Origin: Solibacillus sp. FSL H8-0538
GTDB lineage: Bacteria; Bacillota; Bacilli; Bacillales_A; Planococcaceae
Assembly (NCBI RefSeq): GCF_038003525.1
Contig: NZ_JBBOPI010000001.1
Span: forward strand, 3,182,501 to 3,246,500
DNA: 64,000 bases
Direction of reading: 5' to 3'
Shown: positions 3,183 through 58,493 of the stretch, one piece after another
How positions within the stretch are numbered: the stretch's first letter is position 1
Layout of the letters: the number at the start of each line of letters is the position of its first letter
Translations under genes and position numbers: made by a program
Notes under the pieces: generated by a model
What the model was told of the DNA's origin: nothing
The model's input: only the letters and a program-made list of their open reading frames with translations
Database searches by the model: none

Positions 3183-3264
3183 TTAGAAAGACACATCTCG
3201 AGCCAACATGGACGAGGTGAATTTCTTTTTTAGGTAGATAAGAAACTTATGCTTGCTTATCTAC
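3183..3264 (+). repeat. ~84-bp two-hairpin repeat copy, overlapping the end of bcp
   Basis: Begins TTAGAAAGACACATCTCG. Hairpin 1 is worn; hairpin 2 (GTAGATAAG..CTTATCTAC) is clear. The bcp stop codon and its last codons (VDKQA) fall inside hairpin 2. Confidence 0.75.
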
Positions 3265-14194: not shown

Positions 14195-14235
14195 CCTTAC
14201 ATCATAATAGGTTAGAAAGTTATGCTTTCTTAACC
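14195..14235 (+). repeat. Partial copy of the ~84-bp repeat (hairpin 2)
   Basis: CCTTAC..then stem GGTTAGAAAG / CTTTCTTAACC around TTATG. Only the second half of the element is present. Confidence 0.55.
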
Positions 14236-27028: not shown

Positions 27029-27060
27029 ATACATAAGTAAGTTATACTTTCTTATCTACT
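27029..27060 (+). repeat. Partial copy of the ~84-bp repeat (3' half)
   Basis: CATAAGTAAGTTATACTTTC then TTATCTAC; matches the 3' half of the good copies with an internal deletion. Confidence 0.55.
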
Positions 27061-36792: not shown

Positions 36793-36877
36793 AGTGGTTA
36801 AGATAGCATAACCTTCTTAACCACATCATAAAGAACATCTTCTCGACCTATTTTGGGGCGAGATGTGTCTTTCTAAT
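36793..36877 (-). repeat. ~84-bp two-hairpin repeat copy, reverse orientation
   Basis: Minus strand reads TTAGAAAGACACATCTCGCC, then a worn hairpin 1 and hairpin 2 with arms GTGGTTAAGA.. / ..TCTTAACCAC. It is the only long copy in this orientation and the only one between divergent genes. Confidence 0.75.
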
Positions 36878-39399: not shown

Positions 39400-39662
39400 C
39401 ACCTCGCATAAATCAATTACACCTCAGCGTAAATGTCGCTGACGCTTCATTGGCACTTCGCTTTCACGCAGATAAACAATGCGCCAAGATTTTGAATTGT
39501 ACTTAGGCCTACACGATGCAGGTCAGTTAACCGTAGTCGAATGGATGCTTCGAACTTAGGCTAACCTCCTAAATCAACCGCTTTCAAAATCTGTGACATC
39601 CGCTAGGGGCTTTATACTTATTCAGTCTAGGGTTGGACCACGACTGAATAAACATAAACTTT
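39400..39662 (-). other. Long structured leader of psuKG
   Basis: About 270 bases between the promoter and psuK with no gene. On the minus strand it starts with a perfect hairpin TTATTCAGTC / GACTGAATAA. Then come AGGAGGTTAGCCTAAG, a pairing region around CCTGCATCGTGTAGG and CGTCAGCGACATTTACGCTG next to psuK. No known riboswitch class recognised. Confidence 0.5.
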
Positions 39663-44803: not shown

Positions 44804-45535
44804 ATGGATCGCATCGTTTTGCTTTTTACGTCTCTTATTGTAATAGCAACATTTACGACTTGCGCATATTGGTTTGAATTAAACGGACAAGCAACGATTG
44901 AAATTTTAAATCGTTTACCGATTTTATTCTTACCTGCTAGTTATGTGTATATGCTATGGATCGTAATATTCGTTAGTTTATTCGTTTGGATGATAAACTA
45001 CTATAAAAACCGACATACGCCTTTACGTGTATCTACACTGCAAACGGCTTTATTTGTTTGTATTAGTGTTTTACAAGTTGCCACTTTATTTACATGGCAT
45101 AGTGAGCTCTATATCGCCTCGATTACATTCTTGGCACTACAACTCCTCTCTATGTTCGGACTTTATATGACGTATCCTCTTAACAGAGAAGGTATTCACT
45201 TACGTATGCCAATTGCTGCACTTTTAAGCTGGTCCTTAATGTTATTTTTAGTCTTTATTCGTTATATTCATGTCTTTTTCGAATGGCCAGACTTCGGCTT
45301 CAGCAACGCCTTATGGGCAGTAATTATTATGACAATTGGTACCGCATTTGCACTTCATTTACGCTATCATCATTTCGATATTATTAGTCCACTTGTCTTT
45401 ATTTGGAGTTATATTGGCATTATTATTGCTTATGGTTTTGAAGAGCTACTCGTTTCAACTGCCGCGTTCTTTTTATGCGGAGTGATGATTGTCGGCATTA
45501 TTTTTATGAAAAAGACACATCTCGCCCTGAAATAA
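44804..45535 (+). CDS. TspO/MBR-related multi-pass membrane protein
   Basis: Membrane protein of 243 residues with seven to eight helices. The stretch NRLPILFLPASYVYMLWIVI (near 37-56) matches the family pattern of TspO/MBR-related proteins of Firmicutes (N-x-L-P-x-x-F-x-P-A-x-Y-V-F-x-I-W). Function unknown. GGAGAGG precedes the ATG. The last eight codons (KKTHLALK) read into the first 19 bases of a dispersed repeat, so the original C-terminus may have been replaced. Confidence 0.65.
   Translation: MDRIVLLFTSLIVIATFTTCAYWFELNGQATIEILNRLPILFLPASYVYMLWIVIFVSLFVWMINYYKNRHTPLRVSTLQTALFVCISVLQVATLFTWHSELYIASITFLALQLLSMFGLYMTYPLNREGIHLRMPIAALLSWSLMLFLVFIRYIHVFFEWPDFGFSNALWAVIIMTIGTAFALHLRYHHFDIISPLVFIWSYIGIIIAYGFEELLVSTAAFFLCGVMIVGIIFMKKTHLALK
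45509..45527 (+). repeat. Partial copy of the ~84-bp repeat (first 19 bases)
   Basis: AAAAAGACACATCTCGCCC; the downstream half of hairpin 1 and all of hairpin 2 are missing. Lies in the end of the coding region above. Confidence 0.55.
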
Positions 45536-45605: not shown

Positions 45606-45687
45606 ATTAGAAAGACACAACTCGCTCAAAATAGGGCGAGTTGATGTCCTTACTTATGTGGATGGGAAAGTTATACTTTTTCATCCA
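45606..45687 (+). repeat. ~84-bp two-hairpin repeat copy, overlapping the end of map
   Basis: ATTAGAAAGACACAACTCGC, hairpin 1 (ACTCGCTC / GGGCGAGT), spacer, hairpin 2 (GGATGGGAAAG / CTTTTTCATCC). The map stop codon and last codons (LLDEKV) lie in hairpin 2. Confidence 0.9.
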
Positions 45688-46429
45688 ATAAAGTTAAAAT
45701 TATCGGTTTATCCTTTGTTACAATAATTGAATGTTCAATTTGTGCAACTAATGATTGATCTGGTGTAACGAATGTCCAGCCATCACCTGATTCAACGATA
45801 TGCTCTGCTTTTGCTGAAATGAATGGCTCTACTGCTAACACCATACCTTCCTTCATAATCGTCGTATCCCAAGCATCATAATAGTTTAAGATGTGATCAG
45901 GTGATTCATGAAGTGAGCGACCCAGACCATGACCAGTTAAGTTCATAATGACTGTTAAGCCGTGATCACGTGCTTCACGTTCAACTGCTTTACCAATTTG
46001 GTTTAATTTTGAACCGGCTTTTATTTTCGTTATCGCACGATCTAATGCTGATTTTGCTACCGCACAAAGCTTTTCTTTATCCTCATAGCCTTCACCAATA
46101 ACGAATGAAATCCCTGTATCTGCAAAGTAGCCATCTAAAGAGCCTGATACATCAATATTAACAATATCGCCTTCTTTGATAACTTTAGAACCCGGAATAC
46201 CATGCGCTACTTCGTGGTTTACACTAATACAAGTGTAGCCCGGAAAATCATATTCGCCTTTAGGACCTGAAATCGCACCAGCCTCCGCAAACATACGGCC
46301 TGCAATTTCATCTAATTCCAGTGTTGTTACGCCCGGTTTTGTCGCAGCCTTCATCGCTTCACGAATTTCCGCACAAATACGGCCGATTTTTTTAAATGCT
46401 TCTATTTCTTCTTGAGTTTTTACAATCAT
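45671..46429 (-). CDS. mapB: Type I methionine aminopeptidase (MapB-like)
   Basis: Removes the N-terminal methionine from new proteins. 252 residues without N-terminal extension. The metal ligands are in NIDVSG, FADTGISF, GHGLG (His), AVEPF (Glu) and QIEHSIIV (Glu). Its location matches B. subtilis yflG (mapB), the second methionine aminopeptidase besides the one in the ribosomal-protein cluster. GGAAGGACG precedes the ATG. The C-terminal residues are supplied by a dispersed repeat. Confidence 0.93.
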   Translation of the reverse strand: MIVKTQEEIEAFKKIGRICAEIREAMKAATKPGVTTLELDEIAGRMFAEAGAISGPKGEYDFPGYTCISVNHEVAHGIPGSKVIKEGDIVNIDVSGSLDGYFADTGISFVIGEGYEDKEKLCAVAKSALDRAITKIKAGSKLNQIGKAVEREARDHGLTVIMNLTGHGLGRSLHESPDHILNYYDAWDTTIMKEGMVLAVEPFISAKAEHIVESGDGWTFVTPDQSLVAQIEHSIIVTKDKPIILTLLDEKV

Positions 46430-46637
46430 GTTAAACGTCCTTCCTGTAACAATGTCTACCCTTTACTATAACATAATTAAAATCTGTTGTAGTAACGCAA
46501 AATCTCGTTAAGTCAAACATCGTTGAAGCTCTTTTTATCATACATTATACGGGAATAACCTTACATATCAATTCAATAAATGCTTAATTACAATGTATGT
46601 TCTTAGCTTATCTATGGCTACCTCACAAGCGGCAAAA

Positions 46638-46720
46638 ATTAGAAAAACACATCTCGCCCAAAATAGGGCGAGATGCTGTCCTTTCTTATGTAGATATGAA
46701 AGTTATACTTTCTTATCTAC
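46638..46720 (+). repeat. ~84-bp two-hairpin repeat, near-consensus copy
   Basis: Hairpin 1 arms CATCTCGCCC / GGGCGAGATG, hairpin 2 arms GTAGATATGAAAG / CTTTCTTATCTAC. Agrees with the copy at 52713 at nearly every base. Lies between map and thiT, upstream of map. Confidence 0.92.
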
Positions 46721-46724
46721 CAAG

Positions 46725-46763
46725 TAAAGTGTAGTTCGCTATAAAAAACGAACTACACTTTTT
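46725..46763. terminator. Terminator after thiT
   Basis: AAAGTGTAGTTCG pairs with CGAACTACACTTT. Confidence 0.75.
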
Positions 46764-46764
46764 A

Positions 46765-47322
46765 TCATTTTGCTTGTAGAAGCTTTGGTGCAGAAGTAAA
46801 TAATAATACTGCAACAATAGCTGTTAATATTGTCGCCGGAAGCATATACGTTCCATTATAAATTATCGAATACGCCCATACATTTTGGTCTCCTGCATAT
46901 TCCGCAAAAAAGATAACGCCTGCTAATGTATGCGCAACGTAACGTAAAAAACCACCTAAAACCGTTCCGATCACGATAAAAACAGCAATTTTTGTTTTAT
47001 CTGCCCTTGCTGCAGCCGTTAATAATGGTTGGCGTACAATTCCAGCTAAACCAACGACAGTAAAAGCAATGCCGTAATCTAGTAGTGCCTGCGCCCAGTG
47101 TAAAATGTACGCACCGAACATCATTTGAAGTACGCCAATGAGTAAGCCCGTTGCGAGTCCTGCTGATAGTCCCCAGCGAATGGACATTAATATAATTGGC
47201 ACCATGACTAAGCTAATGGATCCGCCCTGTGCCCAAAGCGTAAATGTTAATTGGTCTAAAATAATGCCGATTGCTGCGAAAATCGCGATTTCTACGAGCA
47301 TTAATAAACGTTTGTTGTTCAT
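46765..47322 (-). CDS. thiT: Energy-coupled thiamine transporter ThiT
   Basis: S component of an ECF vitamin transporter, 185 residues with six membrane helices. The motifs LWAQGGSISLVMVPI (near 31-45) and the C-terminal WAYSIIYNGTYMLPA form the thiamine-binding site in this family. It works with the shared EcfA-EcfA'-EcfT module encoded elsewhere. GGAG precedes the ATG ending at 47322. A TPP riboswitch and terminator upstream show control by thiamine pyrophosphate. Confidence 0.95.
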   Translation of the reverse strand: MNNKRLLMLVEIAIFAAIGIILDQLTFTLWAQGGSISLVMVPIILMSIRWGLSAGLATGLLIGVLQMMFGAYILHWAQALLDYGIAFTVVGLAGIVRQPLLTAAARADKTKIAVFIVIGTVLGGFLRYVAHTLAGVIFFAEYAGDQNVWAYSIIYNGTYMLPATILTAIVAVLLFTSAPKLLQAK

Positions 47323-47390
47323 AACAAATCTCCTCTCTTTTTTCCGATGTAGGATTTGAGAAGGAATAGAAACTGCAAAGCCTGACGACA

Positions 47391-47411
47391 ATTAGAAAAG
47401 CACATTCGCGC
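47391..47411 (+). repeat. Possible short remnant of the ~84-bp repeat
   Basis: ATTAGAAAAGCACATTCGCG resembles the first 20 bases of the element. It lies in the thiT leader beyond the terminator. Confidence 0.3.
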
Positions 47412-47510
47412 ATGTATGAGCAATAACTCAGCGTCCATACGACATTATCGATAGTACTGACATCGTGTCAGCCTCAACCTAGATGGTGTGACTCGAATGG
47501 CTAGACAATA

Positions 47511-47547
47511 AAAAAAACCGACATCAGGACAGAGCCTGACGTCGGTT
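47511..47547 (-). terminator. Riboswitch-controlled terminator of thiT
   Basis: Minus strand: CCGACGTCAGG / CCTGATGTCGG, then eight T. A second ACCGAC just upstream can pair alternatively (antiterminator). Confidence 0.85.
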
Positions 47548-47565
47548 AGAAGTCGGTTTCTATCC

Positions 47566-47655
47566 ACATCCCTGCGCAAGTGTTAACTTACAGGTTCGAA
47601 GGGTCAGTACATACGTGTACAATCTCAGCCGACAAATCGGCCCCCCTTGTGGGCA
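47566..47655 (-). promoter_or_regulatory. TPP riboswitch of thiT
   Basis: Minus strand shows the THI-box parts in order: GGGGGGCC, GGCTGAGATTG (CTGAGA core), a variable stem GTACA..TGTAC, ACCCTTCGAACCTG, and GCGCAGGGA. Followed by a terminator, so high TPP should stop thiT transcription. Confidence 0.93.
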
Positions 47656-47786
47656 TACATCTTAAATTGCTAGAACATACTCATTGTACTGAACGCAGCA
47701 CTATAATTCAACAACAGATTTTTTTGTTTTCATTACGAATCTTTTTGTTTGCCCTATTCGTATAATTTACAAAGGAGCTGATTTTT

Positions 47787-48113
47787 ATGGACAATACGAA
47801 AGGCTTGAGCGCACTTAATTATTTTAGCATCTTTTTTGCGCCATTTTTATTACCGATTATCGTCTTTCTAATTTCTCAGGATGAAGAGGTTCGTTATCAT
47901 GCAAAACGTGCGTTATTATCACATGTAATCCCATTTGTTATTGGTATAATTATTGCTGCCTTTTTCTTATTTACAGTCATCCTTAGTGGCAATGAACCAA
48001 ATTGGGGTGACACAGTTTTTACGTCTATGTTCCTACTGATGGGCTTATATGCATTAGCCTCATTCTTCATTGTTATTTGGAATGTCATCCAAGGTGTTAA
48101 AGTATTGCGCTAA
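47787..48113 (+). CDS. DUF4870 family membrane protein
   Basis: Protein of 108 residues with three membrane helices (about 12-30, 46-68, 80-103) and the family motif DEEVRYHAKRALLSH between helices 1 and 2. Function unknown. AAAGGAG precedes the ATG. It is followed 69 bases later by a 41-codon gene in the same direction. Confidence 0.78.
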   Translation: MDNTKGLSALNYFSIFFAPFLLPIIVFLISQDEEVRYHAKRALLSHVIPFVIGIIIAAFFLFTVILSGNEPNWGDTVFTSMFLLMGLYALASFFIVIWNVIQGVKVLR

Positions 48114-48182
48114 TGTTCATAGACACTAAAAATTAGGGTATATTAAACTAATTAAACCATTATCTAAAGGAGTGCAAGCACT

Positions 48183-48308
48183 ATGAATATTGGAAAAATT
48201 TTTAAAACGGCCGTAAAAGTTGCCCCGATTGTTTATCCAATCATTAAAAAAATTGTCATTAATAAATCAGCCCTGTCTAACTCTACTACAACAACTCGCA
48301 AAAAATAA
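48183..48308 (+). CDS. Very small basic protein, function unknown
   Basis: 41 residues: an N-terminal amphipathic/hydrophobic helix (KTAVKVAPIVYPIIKKIVIN, 8-27) with lysines, and a Ser/Thr-rich tail ending RKK. AAAGGAG lies 10 bases before the ATG and a terminator follows the stop, so translation is likely. It probably binds the membrane surface; it may belong with the DUF4870 gene. Confidence 0.6.
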   Translation: MNIGKIFKTAVKVAPIVYPIIKKIVINKSALSNSTTTTRKK

Positions 48309-48313
48309 TTAGA

Positions 48314-48357
48314 AAGAGGTAGCCCTTCGCAACGTGCGAACAAGCTACCTCTTTTTT
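48314..48357. terminator. Bidirectional terminator between the small gene and sbcC
   Basis: AGAGGTAGC..CGC pairs with GCG..GCTACCTCT; T run on the plus side; overlaps the sbcC stop. Confidence 0.85.
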
Positions 48358-51300
48358 ATTTAATCACAATGGAAGTACGGCTGTAGCCTTCTTTCAGCTT
48401 TTCAACATGAAGGATTGCTGGCATTGCGGCTTTTAGTTCTGCAACGTGCGAAATAACTCCAATTAATCGACCTGTTTGCTGAAGATCAATTAAAATATCT
48501 ATTGCTTTACGCAATGATTCTTCATCTAATGTACCGAAGCCTTCATCAATAAACATTGTGTCAATATGCACGCTCCCTTGCACCCCTTGAATAACATCCG
48601 CCATTCCGAGGGCTAATGAAAGTGAAGCATTAAATTTTTCTCCGCCTGATAGTGTTTTGACATCGCGTGTTTGACCTGTATTGCTGTCAAACACATCAAT
48701 ACTTAAACCACTTTGTGCATTCCCTTCTTTTCGCCCTGTACATTGTAAATAATATTGTCCGTCTGATAATATACGTAAACGCTCATTCGCTGCTTGCGTT
48801 ACTTTTTCCAAATAGCCAATTTGAGCAAAGCGTTCAAATGAAATTTTATGTTCATTTTGACCACGTACTAAATCATAAACATGCTCAACCTTTGAGAGCT
48901 TTGCTTTGGATTCTTCAATTTCCTGCGCTACCTGTAATAAACTTGTTAAAGTAGAGCGGCATTGCTTTTCATAGTTTTCATTGTTTTTTAATGCAGACAG
49001 TACATCTTCTACTTGTCTATTTACTTGTTGTAGCTGTTGTTCAAGTTCGTTTAAATCCACAAGCTCTTTACCTTCTAATTGTGGCATATCCTCATTAATC
49101 TGCACTGTTAATGTGTGCAATTGTTGTTTATACTCTTCCAACGCTTTCACAATTGCTTGGCGCTCTTCTACACGTAGCTTTGCCTGACTATATGCCTCTG
49201 GTGTTATAAAGCCTTCTGTTTGGAGAGCTTTATTAAAGCGTTCCTTCGTCTCAACTATTTCATTTTGCAATTCTTTCAGACGGGTCCCTACATTCATTAA
49301 GCTCACTTTACATTTTTCTTGGTTTACTTCAGCTTGCTGTAGCTGTATTGTTGCCGTTTCAAATGCTTTTTGTAATAAAGTTAATCGAGTTTTTTCAGAT
49401 TGCAATGCGTAATTAACATCTTCTACGGTTTGATATTGTGGGAGCATGGCTTGTTTACTTTGCGCTAGCTTCCCTTGTTCCTGCGCTAGTTCTGTTTCGT
49501 TTTTGCTTAGGAATGTACGCCCATTTTCTATACGCACCTGCAGCTTTTCAATTTCCTCTATTACTTGTTTTAAACTCGCCTTATTAGCGATTAGTTGCTG
49601 CTGCTGTTGCTTTAAAATAGTTAACTGTTGCTGCTGTTGGGCTAACGTTGCTTTATATGCTGGTAGTTCCGTCATAGTTAATGCGTTCGATTCAAGCTGC
49701 AGGTGTTTCTTTTCAAAGTTCGCAGTTTCAGCATCTAGCTTTGATTTAGCGGCATAATAGTGTTTCATTTCTTCATCCGCTACTGCACGTAATTGGGCTA
49801 CAGTTTTTTCATCTACGCTACTCGCTGATTGTGTATGCAGTGACGGATGCTCGGTGCTACCGCATACAGGACATGCATGACCATGCTGTAAATTAGCCGC
49901 TAAAAAAGCCGCTTGATTACTACGCATTTGACTTTCTAATTGTGTAAATTCTGCCTGTGCTTTTAATGCGTTTTCCTGCTGCTCATTCGCTGCCGCTGTA
50001 TAAATTCGAACATTATTTTGTAGCTCAAGCGTTTCCTCTACAAGCTCAATATTGCGTTGTAGCTGCTGATGTTGTAGAAATACGTTTTCATATGCAGCTA
50101 CTTTAGACTCTAATTCATCAATGTTTGACCGTTGTGTAGCTTGTTCTTCCTTTTTCTTCTGCATTTCCAGCGTTAAATTATTAAATAATCCTTTCGCTTT
50201 TTCAACATTAAGCTCTAATTGTTGAATGTTAGCCTGCATAGTTGCCGCGTCATTGTAAATCGGTACGAGTTGCTCAAGCTTAGAAATTGTTTTTACTAAT
50301 TGTTCACGTTCAGTATCCTTTTCTTTTTCTGCATCAAAAACAGTTTGAGCTTGTACAAATGCTTCACCTGATTGCTGAACGTTCTTTTGTGCTGTTAACA
50401 CTACTTCGATTTGGCGTTGCTCTTGTTCATATACTTTTTTATATTCAAATTCCAATGGCTCAATATTGCTCGCCCTATTTGCCAGTTCATAACGCTGCTG
50501 TTGCTGTTCAAAATGCGTTGCTTGGAGCTGTAATTGATTCAATTGAACTTGACGCTGTTGAAACTTCTCAATACGCTCGTTTAACATTTTCTGTTCGCCA
50601 AAACGTTTATTCGCTTCTTTGAGCTGTTCATTTACCGCTTCATATTGCTGTCGAGACTCTATAGCTTGTTCATTATAATAAGTTGCTTCCTCGTCTAATG
50701 CGTTTTCCAATTGATACATATTTACTGTTGCTGCATCAATTACACTAAATAATTGTGACTCGCGATTCGGAAGCTTACTTTTAACATCTAAAATATATTG
50801 ATTTTGTTTCATTTCGGCTTGTGCAAATTGACTTTGTGCATGCGTTCTTTTGTCTTTTAGCAAGTCAACCATTTTAGTGAAGCGCTCCGTCTTAAATATT
50901 TTCCTGAAAATTTCTTCCTTATGCTTTGATTCAGATGTTAATAGCTTCTGAAATTCCCCTTGCGGTAACATTACGATTTGATTAAACTGCGATTGTGTTA
51001 AGCCGATTAGTTCTTCCACTTTTGCTTGTACTGGTCGCACTTGGAATTTTTCAACGACTGGCTCATTCATGCCACCAGTAATATCATAAAATTCACGTTT
51101 TGAGCCTGCTCCATTAGGACCAAATTTACGCCAAATTCGATACGTTCTACCTCGAACCTCGAAAATCAATTCGACTTCTGTGTCCACTTTTTCATCTGCA
51201 AAATCACTGCGTAAAAAGTTGGCTTTTTCACGATCTTCACCGCTACCTGTATCATATAGTGCATACGTAATAGCATCAAAAATCGTCGTTTTCCCAGCTC

Positions 51301-51412
51301 CAGTTGAACCAGAAACGACAAAAATACCGTGTTCATGGAGCTGTGTAAAATCGATTACTTCAGTATCTTTATAAGGACCAAACGCTGTCATTGTTAATTT
51401 AAGTGGTTTCAT
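48356..51412 (-). CDS. sbcC: DNA repair exonuclease subunit SbcC
   Basis: SMC-like ATPase of 1018 residues that works with SbcD on DNA hairpins and protein-blocked ends. It has Walker A GSTGAGKTTIFDAI (35-48), two very long coiled coils separated by the zinc hook CPVCG (about 513-517), signature LSGGEKFNASLSLALGMA and Walker B MFIDEGFGTLDEESL near the C-terminus. Glutamine runs occur in the coils. Its ATG overlaps the sbcD stop by four bases (ATGA). Confidence 0.95.
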   Translation of the reverse strand: MKPLKLTMTAFGPYKDTEVIDFTQLHEHGIFVVSGSTGAGKTTIFDAITYALYDTGSGEDREKANFLRSDFADEKVDTEVELIFEVRGRTYRIWRKFGPNGAGSKREFYDITGGMNEPVVEKFQVRPVQAKVEELIGLTQSQFNQIVMLPQGEFQKLLTSESKHKEEIFRKIFKTERFTKMVDLLKDKRTHAQSQFAQAEMKQNQYILDVKSKLPNRESQLFSVIDAATVNMYQLENALDEEATYYNEQAIESRQQYEAVNEQLKEANKRFGEQKMLNERIEKFQQRQVQLNQLQLQATHFEQQQQRYELANRASNIEPLEFEYKKVYEQEQRQIEVVLTAQKNVQQSGEAFVQAQTVFDAEKEKDTEREQLVKTISKLEQLVPIYNDAATMQANIQQLELNVEKAKGLFNNLTLEMQKKKEEQATQRSNIDELESKVAAYENVFLQHQQLQRNIELVEETLELQNNVRIYTAAANEQQENALKAQAEFTQLESQMRSNQAAFLAANLQHGHACPVCGSTEHPSLHTQSASSVDEKTVAQLRAVADEEMKHYYAAKSKLDAETANFEKKHLQLESNALTMTELPAYKATLAQQQQQLTILKQQQQQLIANKASLKQVIEEIEKLQVRIENGRTFLSKNETELAQEQGKLAQSKQAMLPQYQTVEDVNYALQSEKTRLTLLQKAFETATIQLQQAEVNQEKCKVSLMNVGTRLKELQNEIVETKERFNKALQTEGFITPEAYSQAKLRVEERQAIVKALEEYKQQLHTLTVQINEDMPQLEGKELVDLNELEQQLQQVNRQVEDVLSALKNNENYEKQCRSTLTSLLQVAQEIEESKAKLSKVEHVYDLVRGQNEHKISFERFAQIGYLEKVTQAANERLRILSDGQYYLQCTGRKEGNAQSGLSIDVFDSNTGQTRDVKTLSGGEKFNASLSLALGMADVIQGVQGSVHIDTMFIDEGFGTLDEESLRKAIDILIDLQQTGRLIGVISHVAELKAAMPAILHVEKLKEGYSRTSIVIK

Positions 51413-52575
51413 AACATGACCTCCTGTGCTTCACGTTCACCGTCTAATAATTGCTGTAACACTTCGTTATACAGTTCCTTTGTTGCTTCATCCGCATCTT
51501 TCCCCGTCATTTCCTGATAAAAGAGTTCAAATAACTCCTCATCGTTCATATTGACGCGACTCATTACTGCAGACTCTGCTGTAATTTGCTGATAAACCGC
51601 TGTTCGCTCTACATGTAGTGCATTCGGATAGACCGTACGTACCTGCTCTGTTGCACCCTTCACATAATCTTCATCCGTGAGCTTCACATACACATAGTCT
51701 TCATTACGTTGATGCTGTAATAGTTCATCTAGGCTCCCCTTTACTATGCGCATATCACGCAAAGGCTTGAATGAACGTTTTTCCACTTGTACCGAGCCAT
51801 CTTTCTGTAAATCCACAACTAAATACCCTTTGTCGTGATTCACCTCTGATTCCGAATATTTTAGTGGTGAGCCTGCATAACGAATCGTTTCATTTAATAC
51901 GTAGTGCGCTTGATGTAAATGACCTAGCGCTGTGTAATTAAACGGTTCGAACAGTGATGCATTAATACATTCGGTACCACCTACTGTTAAACGGCGCTCA
52001 GAATCACTAGTATTAGGTTCAGGTAATCCTTGCTTTGTAATAAAAGCATGTCCAATCATAATATTACGTTTCGTCGTATCCATTGATTGTTGAATACGCT
52101 CGATAATTTTTGCCATTGCTGCCTCATGTGTTGTAATTTCCGCATCACCAAACACATCACGCACTGTGGAAGGTTCTGCAAAAGGAACTAAATAAAAATG
52201 TACATCGCCAAACTCATCCGTTAGCACAACCGGCTCAATGTCGGCAGTTAAATGCCCGACCATATGTAGTCCGCTCGCCTTCATTAAATCACTACCAAAA
52301 TGCAGGCGTGTTGCGCTATCATGGTTACCGGCAATAGCTACTACAGGTATTTTTTCATCGACAACCAATTGTTTAAATGTCTTATTAAGTAATTGAATTG
52401 CTTCTGTTGAGGGAACCGAACGATCATATAAGTCCCCTGCAATAATAATGACGTCGGGCTTTTCTTGTCTAATTTCTTCAATGAATTGCTGTAAAATATA
52501 ACGTTGATCTTCCGTCATGACAACCCCTTGAACTTGCTTTCCTAAGTGCCAGTCTGCCGTATGGAAAATTTTCAT
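51409..52575 (-). CDS. sbcD: DNA repair exonuclease subunit SbcD
   Basis: Metal-dependent nuclease of 388 residues, partner of SbcC. The calcineurin-like phosphoesterase motifs are HTADWHLGK (N-terminus), GDLYDRSVPS, AGNHDS and GHLH, followed by the C-terminal SbcC-binding part. GGGAGG precedes the ATG. First gene of sbcDC. Confidence 0.95.
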   Translation of the reverse strand: MKIFHTADWHLGKQVQGVVMTEDQRYILQQFIEEIRQEKPDVIIIAGDLYDRSVPSTEAIQLLNKTFKQLVVDEKIPVVAIAGNHDSATRLHFGSDLMKASGLHMVGHLTADIEPVVLTDEFGDVHFYLVPFAEPSTVRDVFGDAEITTHEAAMAKIIERIQQSMDTTKRNIMIGHAFITKQGLPEPNTSDSERRLTVGGTECINASLFEPFNYTALGHLHQAHYVLNETIRYAGSPLKYSESEVNHDKGYLVVDLQKDGSVQVEKRSFKPLRDMRIVKGSLDELLQHQRNEDYVYVKLTDEDYVKGATEQVRTVYPNALHVERTAVYQQITAESAVMSRVNMNDEELFELFYQEMTGKDADEATKELYNEVLQQLLDGEREAQEVML

Positions 52576-52712
52576 AGCAAAGCCTCCCTTTTCGTTAATA
52601 ATTCCATTCTATCATGACCGAAAATATAAAAACCACTTTTCACGAACAGACATTCGAGAAAAGTGGTTTTTATTTACAATTTTTTTCGTTTAGTAAGCTT
52701 GCTAATCCATAC

Positions 52713-52796
52713 CATTAGAAAGACACATCTCGCCCAAAATTGGGCGAGATGATGTCCTTACTTATGTAGATAAGAAAGTTATACTTTCTTATCTAC
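52713..52796 (+). repeat. ~84-bp two-hairpin repeat, near-consensus copy
   Basis: Hairpin 1 arms CATCTCGCCC / GGGCGAGATG, spacer ATGTCCTTACTTAT, hairpin 2 arms GTAGATAAGAAAG / CTTTCTTATCTAC around TTATA; all arms pair perfectly. Lies between sbcD and the SGNH gene. Confidence 0.95.
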
Positions 52797-52797
52797 A

Positions 52798-52835
52798 AAT
52801 AAAAACCCTCTTTCTACGACAGAAAGAGAGTTTCC
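52798..52835 (-). terminator. Terminator containing the end of the SGNH gene
   Basis: Minus strand: AAACTCTCTTTCT / AGAAAGAGGGTTT, then T-rich. The last codons (ETLFLS) and TAG are in the stem-loop. The repeat copy at 52713 follows directly. Confidence 0.85.
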
Positions 52836-53734
52836 TTATAGCCAAAATGCATAACATACATGTTGATTGGATGATGACGTTTTTGCACAGACGCATCTAC
52901 AGCTACTTGCTCTGTTTTTCGATCTTCGGATTTTGCATCCTGTTGCAATTGCAAAATTTCCTCAAACGTTAACGGATTTGGTGTTGGCATCGCATTTTCC
53001 GGCATTGCTAATGACTCATTGCCTGCGTAGATTTCTAAAAAGGCATTCGCCATCACTCTGTAGCCGTTTTGATTCGGGTGAACATCTTCTACGTTTGGCA
53101 AATAGTTCGGTCCAGCCACTTCAAACTGTTTGTATACCGGAACAAATGTCGCTTCGGCAATCTCTGCCTCCTGCTGCAAAATTGCATTCAATGTCACTAG
53201 TTGCTTCGTTGTACCTGCTTTTTGAGATTCGTGCACATTCACATAAGGAAAATAATAACCCATTACATAAACCTTGGCATTCGGCGCCTTCACACCGACC
53301 GTTTCTAACAGCGTAGCGAAATCCTTACGTGCGGTATTTAATGCGAAATCTGCAGTAAGCTGGGAAAATGACAGTGTTCCGGCATTCGGATTATGAGAAA
53401 CAAGTCGCAGTAAATCATTCGCCCCTGCTGAAATTGTAATGAGCGTTGCATCTGCTAATAATTCATCTGCCCTCTCCGTCTGCACACTTGCTAATACATT
53501 TGCGACCGTATAGCCAGGAAAAGCAAGTTCTTTTGTAAAGTTTGCTAGCTGACCTGAACGTGTGAGCTGTAATGCAATAAAATCTGTGTATCCTGCATCA
53601 ATTTGCGAATATGGAGTTTGACCGGCCGCTAACGAATCACCGAGCACGATATAATTCTCAACTGCCTGTGCCTTCACTCCTACCGGAAGTAACAAGAAAC
53701 ATGACACCAGGAAAATGAATGAAAGCTTTTTCAT
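52814..53734 (-). CDS. Secreted SGNH/GDSL hydrolase
   Basis: Probable lipase/esterase or acyl hydrolase of 306 residues with a signal peptide (1-22, ending VKAQA). Block I is VLGDSLAAGQ (catalytic Ser), block III SAGANDLLR, and block V DVHPNQNGY (Asp-His). No lipobox, so it is probably released or wall-associated; the substrate is unknown. The ATG ending at 53734 has GGTGG upstream. The last residues are coded inside the terminator hairpin, so the natural C-terminus may have been changed by its arrival. Confidence 0.85.
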   Translation of the reverse strand: MKKLSFIFLVSCFLLLPVGVKAQAVENYIVLGDSLAAGQTPYSQIDAGYTDFIALQLTRSGQLANFTKELAFPGYTVANVLASVQTERADELLADATLITISAGANDLLRLVSHNPNAGTLSFSQLTADFALNTARKDFATLLETVGVKAPNAKVYVMGYYFPYVNVHESQKAGTTKQLVTLNAILQQEAEIAEATFVPVYKQFEVAGPNYLPNVEDVHPNQNGYRVMANAFLEIYAGNESLAMPENAMPTPNPLTFEEILQLQQDAKSEDRKTEQVAVDASVQKRHHPINMYVMHFGYKETLFLS

Positions 53735-53777
53735 TTCGCCACCTGCCTTTATCTCAATAAACATTTGCTAAACTAAG

Positions 53778-58412: not shown

Positions 58413-58493
58413 GTTAGAATTTGAACGACTCTACTCGACCAAAATAGCCGAGTTGATGTCCTTACGTATGTGGATGAGGATTTCACATCCACT
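58413..58493 (+). repeat. ~84-bp two-hairpin repeat copy upstream of the ligase gene
   Basis: GTTAGAATTTGAACGACTCT, hairpin 1 (ACTCGACC..GCCGAGT), spacer ATGTCCTTACGTATGT, hairpin 2 (GGATGAGG / CACATCC worn). Lies in the 5' region of the minus-strand ligase gene. Confidence 0.75.

Follow-up and report, generated by a model that had tools for sequence, protein, structure and literature searches.

An 82-bp two-hairpin repeat of Solibacillus that favours terminator T-tracts and is mostly oriented with the replication fork

In a stretch of 64,000 nucleotides of the genome of Solibacillus sp. FSL H8-0538 (the window; C1:3182501–3246500 of 3.93 Mb), an initial annotation made from the sequence alone noted a dispersed element with two hairpins. 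Here we report that this element is a repeat of 82 bp that occurs throughout the genome behind T-rich tracts, in many cases those of intrinsic terminators, and that its orientation follows replication. With a probability of about 0.72, we read it as a non-autonomous element of ~82 bp that is moved as single-stranded DNA and inserts at terminator T-tracts of the lagging-strand template. We favour this reading because four features combine: insertion without target duplication, a preferred target on the 5′ side, hairpins at both ends and lagging-strand polarity. The element is REP- and PATE-like in looks and at most a candidate member of either family.

Searches with blastn and a covariance model delimit the two-hairpin repeat as 82 bp and recover five full copies, two worn copies and two remnants of hairpin 2 in the window. 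These are listed below together with the site that the best copy abuts.

52715..52796, + strand as read in the initial annotation (the T-tract-first top strand is −): best full copy, 115 bits with the covariance model and also found by blastn
52726–52751 and 52766–52796: hairpin A (hairpin 1 of the initial annotation) and hairpin B (its hairpin 2) of the best copy
52797..52830, − strand: target site abutted by the best copy, a stem and T-tract; top-strand flank CTTTCTGTCGTAGAAAGAGGGTTTTTATTT
46639..46720, + strand: full copy, 105.8 bits; 94% identical to the copy at 52715
45607..45688, + strand: full copy, 101 bits; overlaps the 3′ end of the − strand Peptidase_M24 gene at 45671–46429
36794..36876, − strand: full copy, 87.8 bits; oriented opposite to most others on its replichore
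3183..3264, + strand: worn full-length copy, 72.2 bits
58419..58495, + strand: worn copy, 54.3 bits
1463..1549, + strand: strongly worn copy, 40.4 bits
14194..14232, + strand: remnant, hairpin B and linker only; blastn 82% over 39 nt
27030..27059, + strand: remnant, hairpin B only; blastn 93% over 30 nt

The two copies that had been described as agreeing over about 84 bases, at ~46638 and 52713, are real, as are the further long copies at 3183, 36793 (reverse) and 45606, whereas those at 58413 and 1477 are worn. The supposed partial copies at 14195 and 27029 are pieces of hairpin 2 only, and the one at 45509 is a match of 17 nt (blastn, E 0.026 in the window) that may be chance.

We use ‘top’ for the strand opposite to that of the initial annotation, on which the T-tract comes first. 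It carries, in order, hairpin B (GTRGATAAGAAAGTATAAC...YAC), a linker (ATAAGTAAGGACA), a bulged base, hairpin A and a tail (TGTCTTTCTAA). In the simplest subfamilies hairpin B is GTRGATAAGAAAGTATAACTTTCTTATCYAC; hairpin A is CAWCTCGCCC...GGGCGAGWTG, with one bulged base (T or G) on its 5′ arm. The first bases are GTGG or GTAG in 109 of the 148 copies listed on the chromosome, and hairpin B ends in the reverse complement of this foot; in relatives the foot may also be GCGG, GTCG and similar, with pairing kept. TCTAA terminates 113 of the 148 copies, and among the stretches compared conservation is highest over the final 12 positions. Both strands fold far better than shuffled sequences, whether modelled as RNA or as DNA (z about −10 to −13), and folding and covariation together place hairpins at both ends of the element. 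Two copies lack an intact hairpin B: the one at 482648 looks like a deletion between ATAAG repeats, and the one at 1141917 like a truncated 5′ end behind another stem.

Genome-wide, blastn found at least 40 long copies. From 30 of these copies and three more in the window a model (R1) was built, which matched all 150 candidates that were scored: 148 chromosomal ones and 2 from a second contig, of 191.6 kb. Because every scored candidate matched, the weakest still at E 2.8e-8, 150 is a lower bound, and the copies are far too numerous to be due to chance. Applied to 380 kb of other stretches, R1 gave 19 matches at E 0.01 in 17 distinct places, so the true number exceeds 150; by rough extrapolation, it is nearer 280 when worn copies are included. 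The 19 background stretches were hand-picked in gaps between fetched regions and contain none of the 148 listed copies. The counts of genomic context below cover the 148 listed chromosomal copies and omit the two on the second contig; one copy has no gene on either side, which leaves 147 where genes are concerned. Genes and terminators were called with simple custom scripts. An identical partner exists for 6 of 112 full-length copies and a partner one base away for 12 more; such near-identical pairs point to recent movement, with gene conversion as an alternative.

One insertion could be compared with its empty site. In the resident IS200 paralogues, the junction AAGAAAAGA/TAAAATAAG is empty in one (L074) and is separated by 82 bp in another (L073), with one ambiguous base. 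This pair, the only one in which an empty site was found, records a clean 82-bp insertion without target duplication. Elsewhere, the copy at 570071 lies within another copy. The proposal of a MITE- or REP-like family stands in part: the copies, the clean insertion, the rarity of overlap with called genes (6 of 148 copies) and the paired hairpins agree with a small mobile hairpin repeat, whereas no target duplication and no REP partner gene were seen in this genome. The mobile repeat bcr1 makes target duplications, and a MITE of the bcr1 or RUP type, with terminal inverted repeats and target-site duplications, was rejected on the evidence of the empty and filled pair.

The sites themselves are T-rich. 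Counting from −9 to −2, 133 of 148 copies have five or more T residues, and the base at −1 is A in 77, G in 38, T in 33 and C in none (n = 148); the target thus looks like a T-tract rather than one fixed tetra- or pentanucleotide. A strong upstream stem (score 12) precedes 53% of copies compared with 6% of 1500 T-rich control positions, taken from 26406 that were drawn from genic and intergenic DNA alike. Among intergenic T-tracts only, the ratio of tracts with a stem to tracts without is 69:41 at copies and 110:1239 in the background (odds ratio 19). The initial annotation had held that the element is not a simple terminator. This was right, and a plain intrinsic terminator is rejected, as a separate stem with its T-tract precedes the element and the tail of the element is no T-run; yet about half or more of the copies stand directly behind a terminator. 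In the window, the top-strand flank of the 46639 copy is a stem and T-tract downstream of the − strand Thia_YuaJ gene at 46765–47322, and the stem and T-tract at 52797..52830 overlap the end of the − strand gene at 52814–53764. The copy at 45607–45688 seems to supply the last codons and stop (window 45671–45688) of the Peptidase_M24 gene, which is methionine aminopeptidase-like.

Orientation follows the replication fork. DnaA and DnaN domains are encoded within 4 kb of the start of the contig, and the GC skew changes sign near 1.87 Mb. With the terminus placed there, 132 of the 148 listed copies have a top strand that runs with the fork and is thus the lagging-strand template (134 of 148 with the terminus at 1.855 Mb, as used for the gene-context counts). 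Genes lie on the leading strand in 568 of 777 called, and orientation as a mere result of gene direction was considered and rejected. Where the flanking genes converge, 27 of 30 copies are aligned with fork movement (p 8e-6, tested against an even split), and predicted terminators are co-oriented with and counter to the fork in a ratio of 65:6 where a copy is present but 305:237 where none is (odds ratio 8.4, p 8e-10). The same direction prevails where both genes are opposed (13 of 15, p 0.007), where the two genes share one sense (82 of 86) and where they diverge (12 of 16). T-tracts without a stem are split 36:5, with the fork to against it, at copies and 574:665 in the background. Copies with at most four changes from the consensus are polar without exception (19 of 19), and the older classes are polar in 49 of 54, 29 of 33 and 4 of 5 cases. 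In two single-contig relatives of genus g14, both with a DnaA motif in the first 3 kb of the contig, 25 of 31 and 20 of 21 copies are polar; for 34 copies from four relatives the figure is 29 by half-chromosome and 27 by local GC skew.

A second repeat family of ~187 bp, with 44 matches at no fewer than 40 places (for example, G000 L228–L239), begins at the same type of site as the 82-bp element and resembles it at the left end (9 of 5000 shuffles score as well); 37 of the 40 scored places of this second family are polar. At 482648, 498276, 2512999, 2660527 and 2766984, an 82-bp copy exactly fills the interval from the upstream flank to the beginning of the second family; the junction copy at 482648 is the one that lacks hairpin B. 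Among 12 second-family loci that were printed and judged by eye, two lie behind an 82-bp copy and the other ten behind a stem. A third repeat, of about 129–157 bp, shares its middle part with the ~187-bp family.

Which enzyme could move the element was approached through the Y1 transposases. This genome has three full-length IS200-type TnpA genes and one fragment of 26.5 bits, and a RAYT-like gene (tnpA_REP) was not found in it at E 0.01, these IS200-type genes and the weak fragment being the only Y1 matches. A narrower form of the single-strand reading, the probability of which lies inside that of the wider one, has the element moved by the TnpA of the resident IS200. We rate this as less likely than not. 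In its favour are the three complete genes and the sites that IS200 itself occupies, a stem and T-tract preceding two of its three copies in this genome. By eye, 11 of 14 printed IS200 loci of relatives, from 29 examined, lie directly behind a terminator-like stem (L191, L194, L197, L199, L200, L201, L203, L204, L206, L207 and L208); for the remaining three the flank is truncated or not visible. On the other side, the ends of the resident IS200 differ from those of the element: no element-like ends were found there, left-end alignments being equalled in 2032 and 624 of 5000 shuffles, and IS200 was accordingly set aside as owner of the element’s ends. No Y1_Tnp over the Pfam cut-off was found, moreover, in 6 of 11 relatives with at least three listed copies (ten chosen from the search of 261 genomes described below, four over the cut-off and six not, plus G131, which has two full Y1 genes), so the data do not support a constant Y1 partner; in those relatives the enzyme has been lost, or acts from elsewhere, or is of another kind. 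Many relatives carry one RAYT-like Y1 gene of roughly 190–250 amino acids (L211–L227). These were rejected as a source: in 46 TnpA loci the best matches to the model reach 20.7 and 18 bits, and the 17 RAYT-type loci score at most 18 bits. The 18-bit match in L212 is a REP-like hairpin that lies upstream of a RAYT gene and has a tail (GAATTGTGTCTTTTGAA) that resembles the tail of the element, a single weak case.

The repeat has a patchy distribution. Under strict filters, and with no more than 17 candidates scored in any genome, R1 matched 29 of 261 genomes of the family, including this one, in 6 of 19 genera; a first sample of 40 relatives had given matches in four other genomes only (31–38.5 bits), and scanning the genome collection for a pattern brought up two Lysinibacillus genomes. 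A model for genus g14 (R2) counted 31, 21 and 32 copies in three genomes; the copies used to build R1 and R2 are also included in the counts of the later searches. Plasmid and phage collections, from which records near this genome are possibly absent, gave no match to the element. One copy, in the leader of rimP, is common to this genome and the two Lysinibacillus genomes (L105:9607–9724, L177 and L178), with hairpin A and the tail better kept than hairpin B. Its occurrence in three genomes implies that some copies are old and have been kept by descent.

Such retention, together with the polarity of 132 of 148 copies, could be expected of a replichore-polar functional DNA site, for example a segregation or nucleoid motif, which the host has selected and spread, so that polarity would reflect function and not insertion. 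We consider this quite improbable. It does not account for insertions into IS200 and into another copy, for a target composed of a T-tract and terminator, for a second family with the same polarity or for a patchy occurrence under strict filters among the genomes searched. The nucleoid or recombination site named in the initial annotation gains from the polarity on the replichores, which could not be seen when that annotation was made, but insertion into the lagging-strand template accounts at once for this polarity and for the target site.

Paired changes in the two arms of both hairpins, first remarked on in worn copies, are borne out within this genome and across four genera. In the alignment of 150 copies, which was fitted to the model, 169 cells hold double changes compared with 61.8 (standard deviation 5.4) in shuffles, a value that 0 of 500 shuffles reached; when partners were slid, 32 to 46 cells held double changes. 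On a cruder count, 17 of 26 pairs have any double change, which was equalled by 7 of 500 shuffles and one slid version. The four-genera set consists of 40 copies (33 of the 34 fetched from four relatives, two from Lysinibacillus and five from here, with the worn L296 left out) and a structure written from one alignment row. Here 12 of 19 pairs and 83 cells show double changes, against 7.2 pairs and 23.9 cells (standard deviation 4.2) in shuffles and no more than 7 pairs and 8 cells in slid controls. Pairing is under selection in both hairpins.

This selection would suit a cis-acting RNA element—a leader, 3′-end stabilizer or attenuator—that has spread to many genes, as would the rimP-leader copy kept in three genomes and the 86 of 147 copies that lie between two genes read in the top-strand direction. 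The hairpins stay paired, but neither strand is visibly maintained as an RNA. Between genera, the G.U:A.C ratio on the top strand is 17:27 (p 0.17). Within the genome, the strand of the initial annotation gives 232:133, an apparent signal to which two pairs fixed in a single subfamily contribute 115 of the 232; leaving those two pairs out brings it to 117:132 (p 0.37), and wobble pairs were discarded as a guide to the RNA strand. Furthermore, the upstream gene is on the opposite strand in 31 of 147 copies, and, as copies abut terminators, transcription would probably need read-through or a promoter of their own. The balance of wobble pairs and the copies inserted in IS200 and in another copy weaken the RNA element of the initial annotation, and we judge it very unlikely. 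An RNA of known family is rejected, as Rfam has no match at the window copies; elsewhere in the window it finds only a TPP riboswitch (47552–47657, − strand), upstream of the Thia_YuaJ transporter gene, and a Bacillaceae-1 RNA (39508–39575, − strand) with a score just at its gathering score.

Group IIC introns insert behind terminators, and one copy (1141917) looks 5′-truncated, but a retroelement-like process of this kind is barely credible and largely refuted unless the enzyme has been lost, as no reverse transcriptase domain (PF00078, RVT_1) was found in the genome at E 0.01 and the 82 bp, without Rfam match at the window copies, have neither intron domains nor intron structure. Helitron-like insertion between A and T with a CTRR end also seems unlikely: the CTAA end would fit, but only 45 of 148 sites are A|T.

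Several observations weigh against transposition as single-stranded DNA. Sixteen of the 148 copies are oriented against the fork, 38 of 148 fail the T-tract test of the intergenic comparison, and a single empty site was found. Enrichment at terminators may stem partly from selection against insertions elsewhere, because insertion behind a terminator does little harm. No autonomous element with shared ends was found in the resident IS200 or the 46 TnpA loci, and the ends of IS200 and the relatives without Y1_Tnp, described above, count on the same side. In another bacterium, a set of IS605 elements has 10 of 22 on the leading strand and no strand preference (PMC7290912), so polarity is not universal for the IS200/IS605 family.

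For other members of that family, IS608 and ISDra2, a preference for the lagging-strand template and an orientation that follows replication are described (PMC5371812), as are hairpin recognition by TnpA and the anatomy of REPs (PMC6006769). The four features named at the outset are, in combination, the published marks of single-strand transposition for IS608 and ISDra2 (PMC5371812, PMC6006769). PATEs are short and hairpin-bearing, lack target duplications and are often moved in trans (PMC7290912). With these and other ends-only IS200/IS605 derivatives the element shares small size, hairpins, insertion without target duplication and lagging-strand polarity (PMC7290912, PMC5371812); it differs from PATEs in that no autonomous element with the same ends was found. 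Like the REPs of the REP/TnpA_REP (RAYT) system, it is short, intergenic and present in many copies with bulged hairpins, and its GTGG/GTAG start and the matching end of hairpin B recall ‘double foot’ REPs (PMC6006769). Unlike REPs, it has two different hairpins per 82-bp unit, a terminator target and other feet in relatives, and a cognate tnpA_REP flanked by REPs was not seen in this genome. SPRITE, RUP and BOX of pneumococcus and bcr1 of the Bacillus cereus group are likewise small, interspersed, structured repeats of Firmicutes. SPRITEs are enriched near the 3′ ends of genes, and RUP and BOX, unlike the element, make target duplications (PMC3049150); SPRITE is itself terminator-like, whereas the element sits behind a separate terminator. 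In the literature surveyed, which comprised titles and abstract openings, left subscription literature mostly outside reach and is no proof of novelty, neither the element nor terminators as a target of IS200 were described. Against that literature, a terminator landing site and fork polarity in a unit of 82 bp with well over a hundred copies appear to be new.

We propose that the element moves as follows. The top strand would be exposed as lagging-strand template at the replication fork, and a single-stranded intermediate would insert immediately 3′ of a T-rich tract (a run of Ts and then A, G or T), preferably the T-tract of an intrinsic terminator, where it would be joined without target duplication. 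Mobilization would be by an HUH-type enzyme acting in trans, for which the TnpA of the resident IS200 is the closest candidate that this genome offers. Terminators may serve as safe harbours, because the upstream transcript stays whole. Going further, and as a conjecture that we think possible rather than likely, this bacterial family may harbour a whole class of ‘terminator parasites’ shorter than 100 bp. Some enzyme other than a recognized Y1 transposase would move them as single-stranded DNA, and the terminator hairpin and T-tract in the lagging-strand template would be their landing pad; they would reach hundreds of copies at low cost to the host and share the pad with other repeats and an IS200.

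Compensatory changes in repeated hairpins are not by themselves proof of an RNA. If moved as we propose, the repeat would be a very small mobile element with a nearly full set of the signs of single-stranded-DNA transposition, and it raises the question of the moving enzyme where no Y1 transposase is found. It links terminators in the role of safe harbours with the lagging-strand template in that of the landing strand, two themes usually studied apart, and its many copies and simple site make target choice testable from genomes alone.

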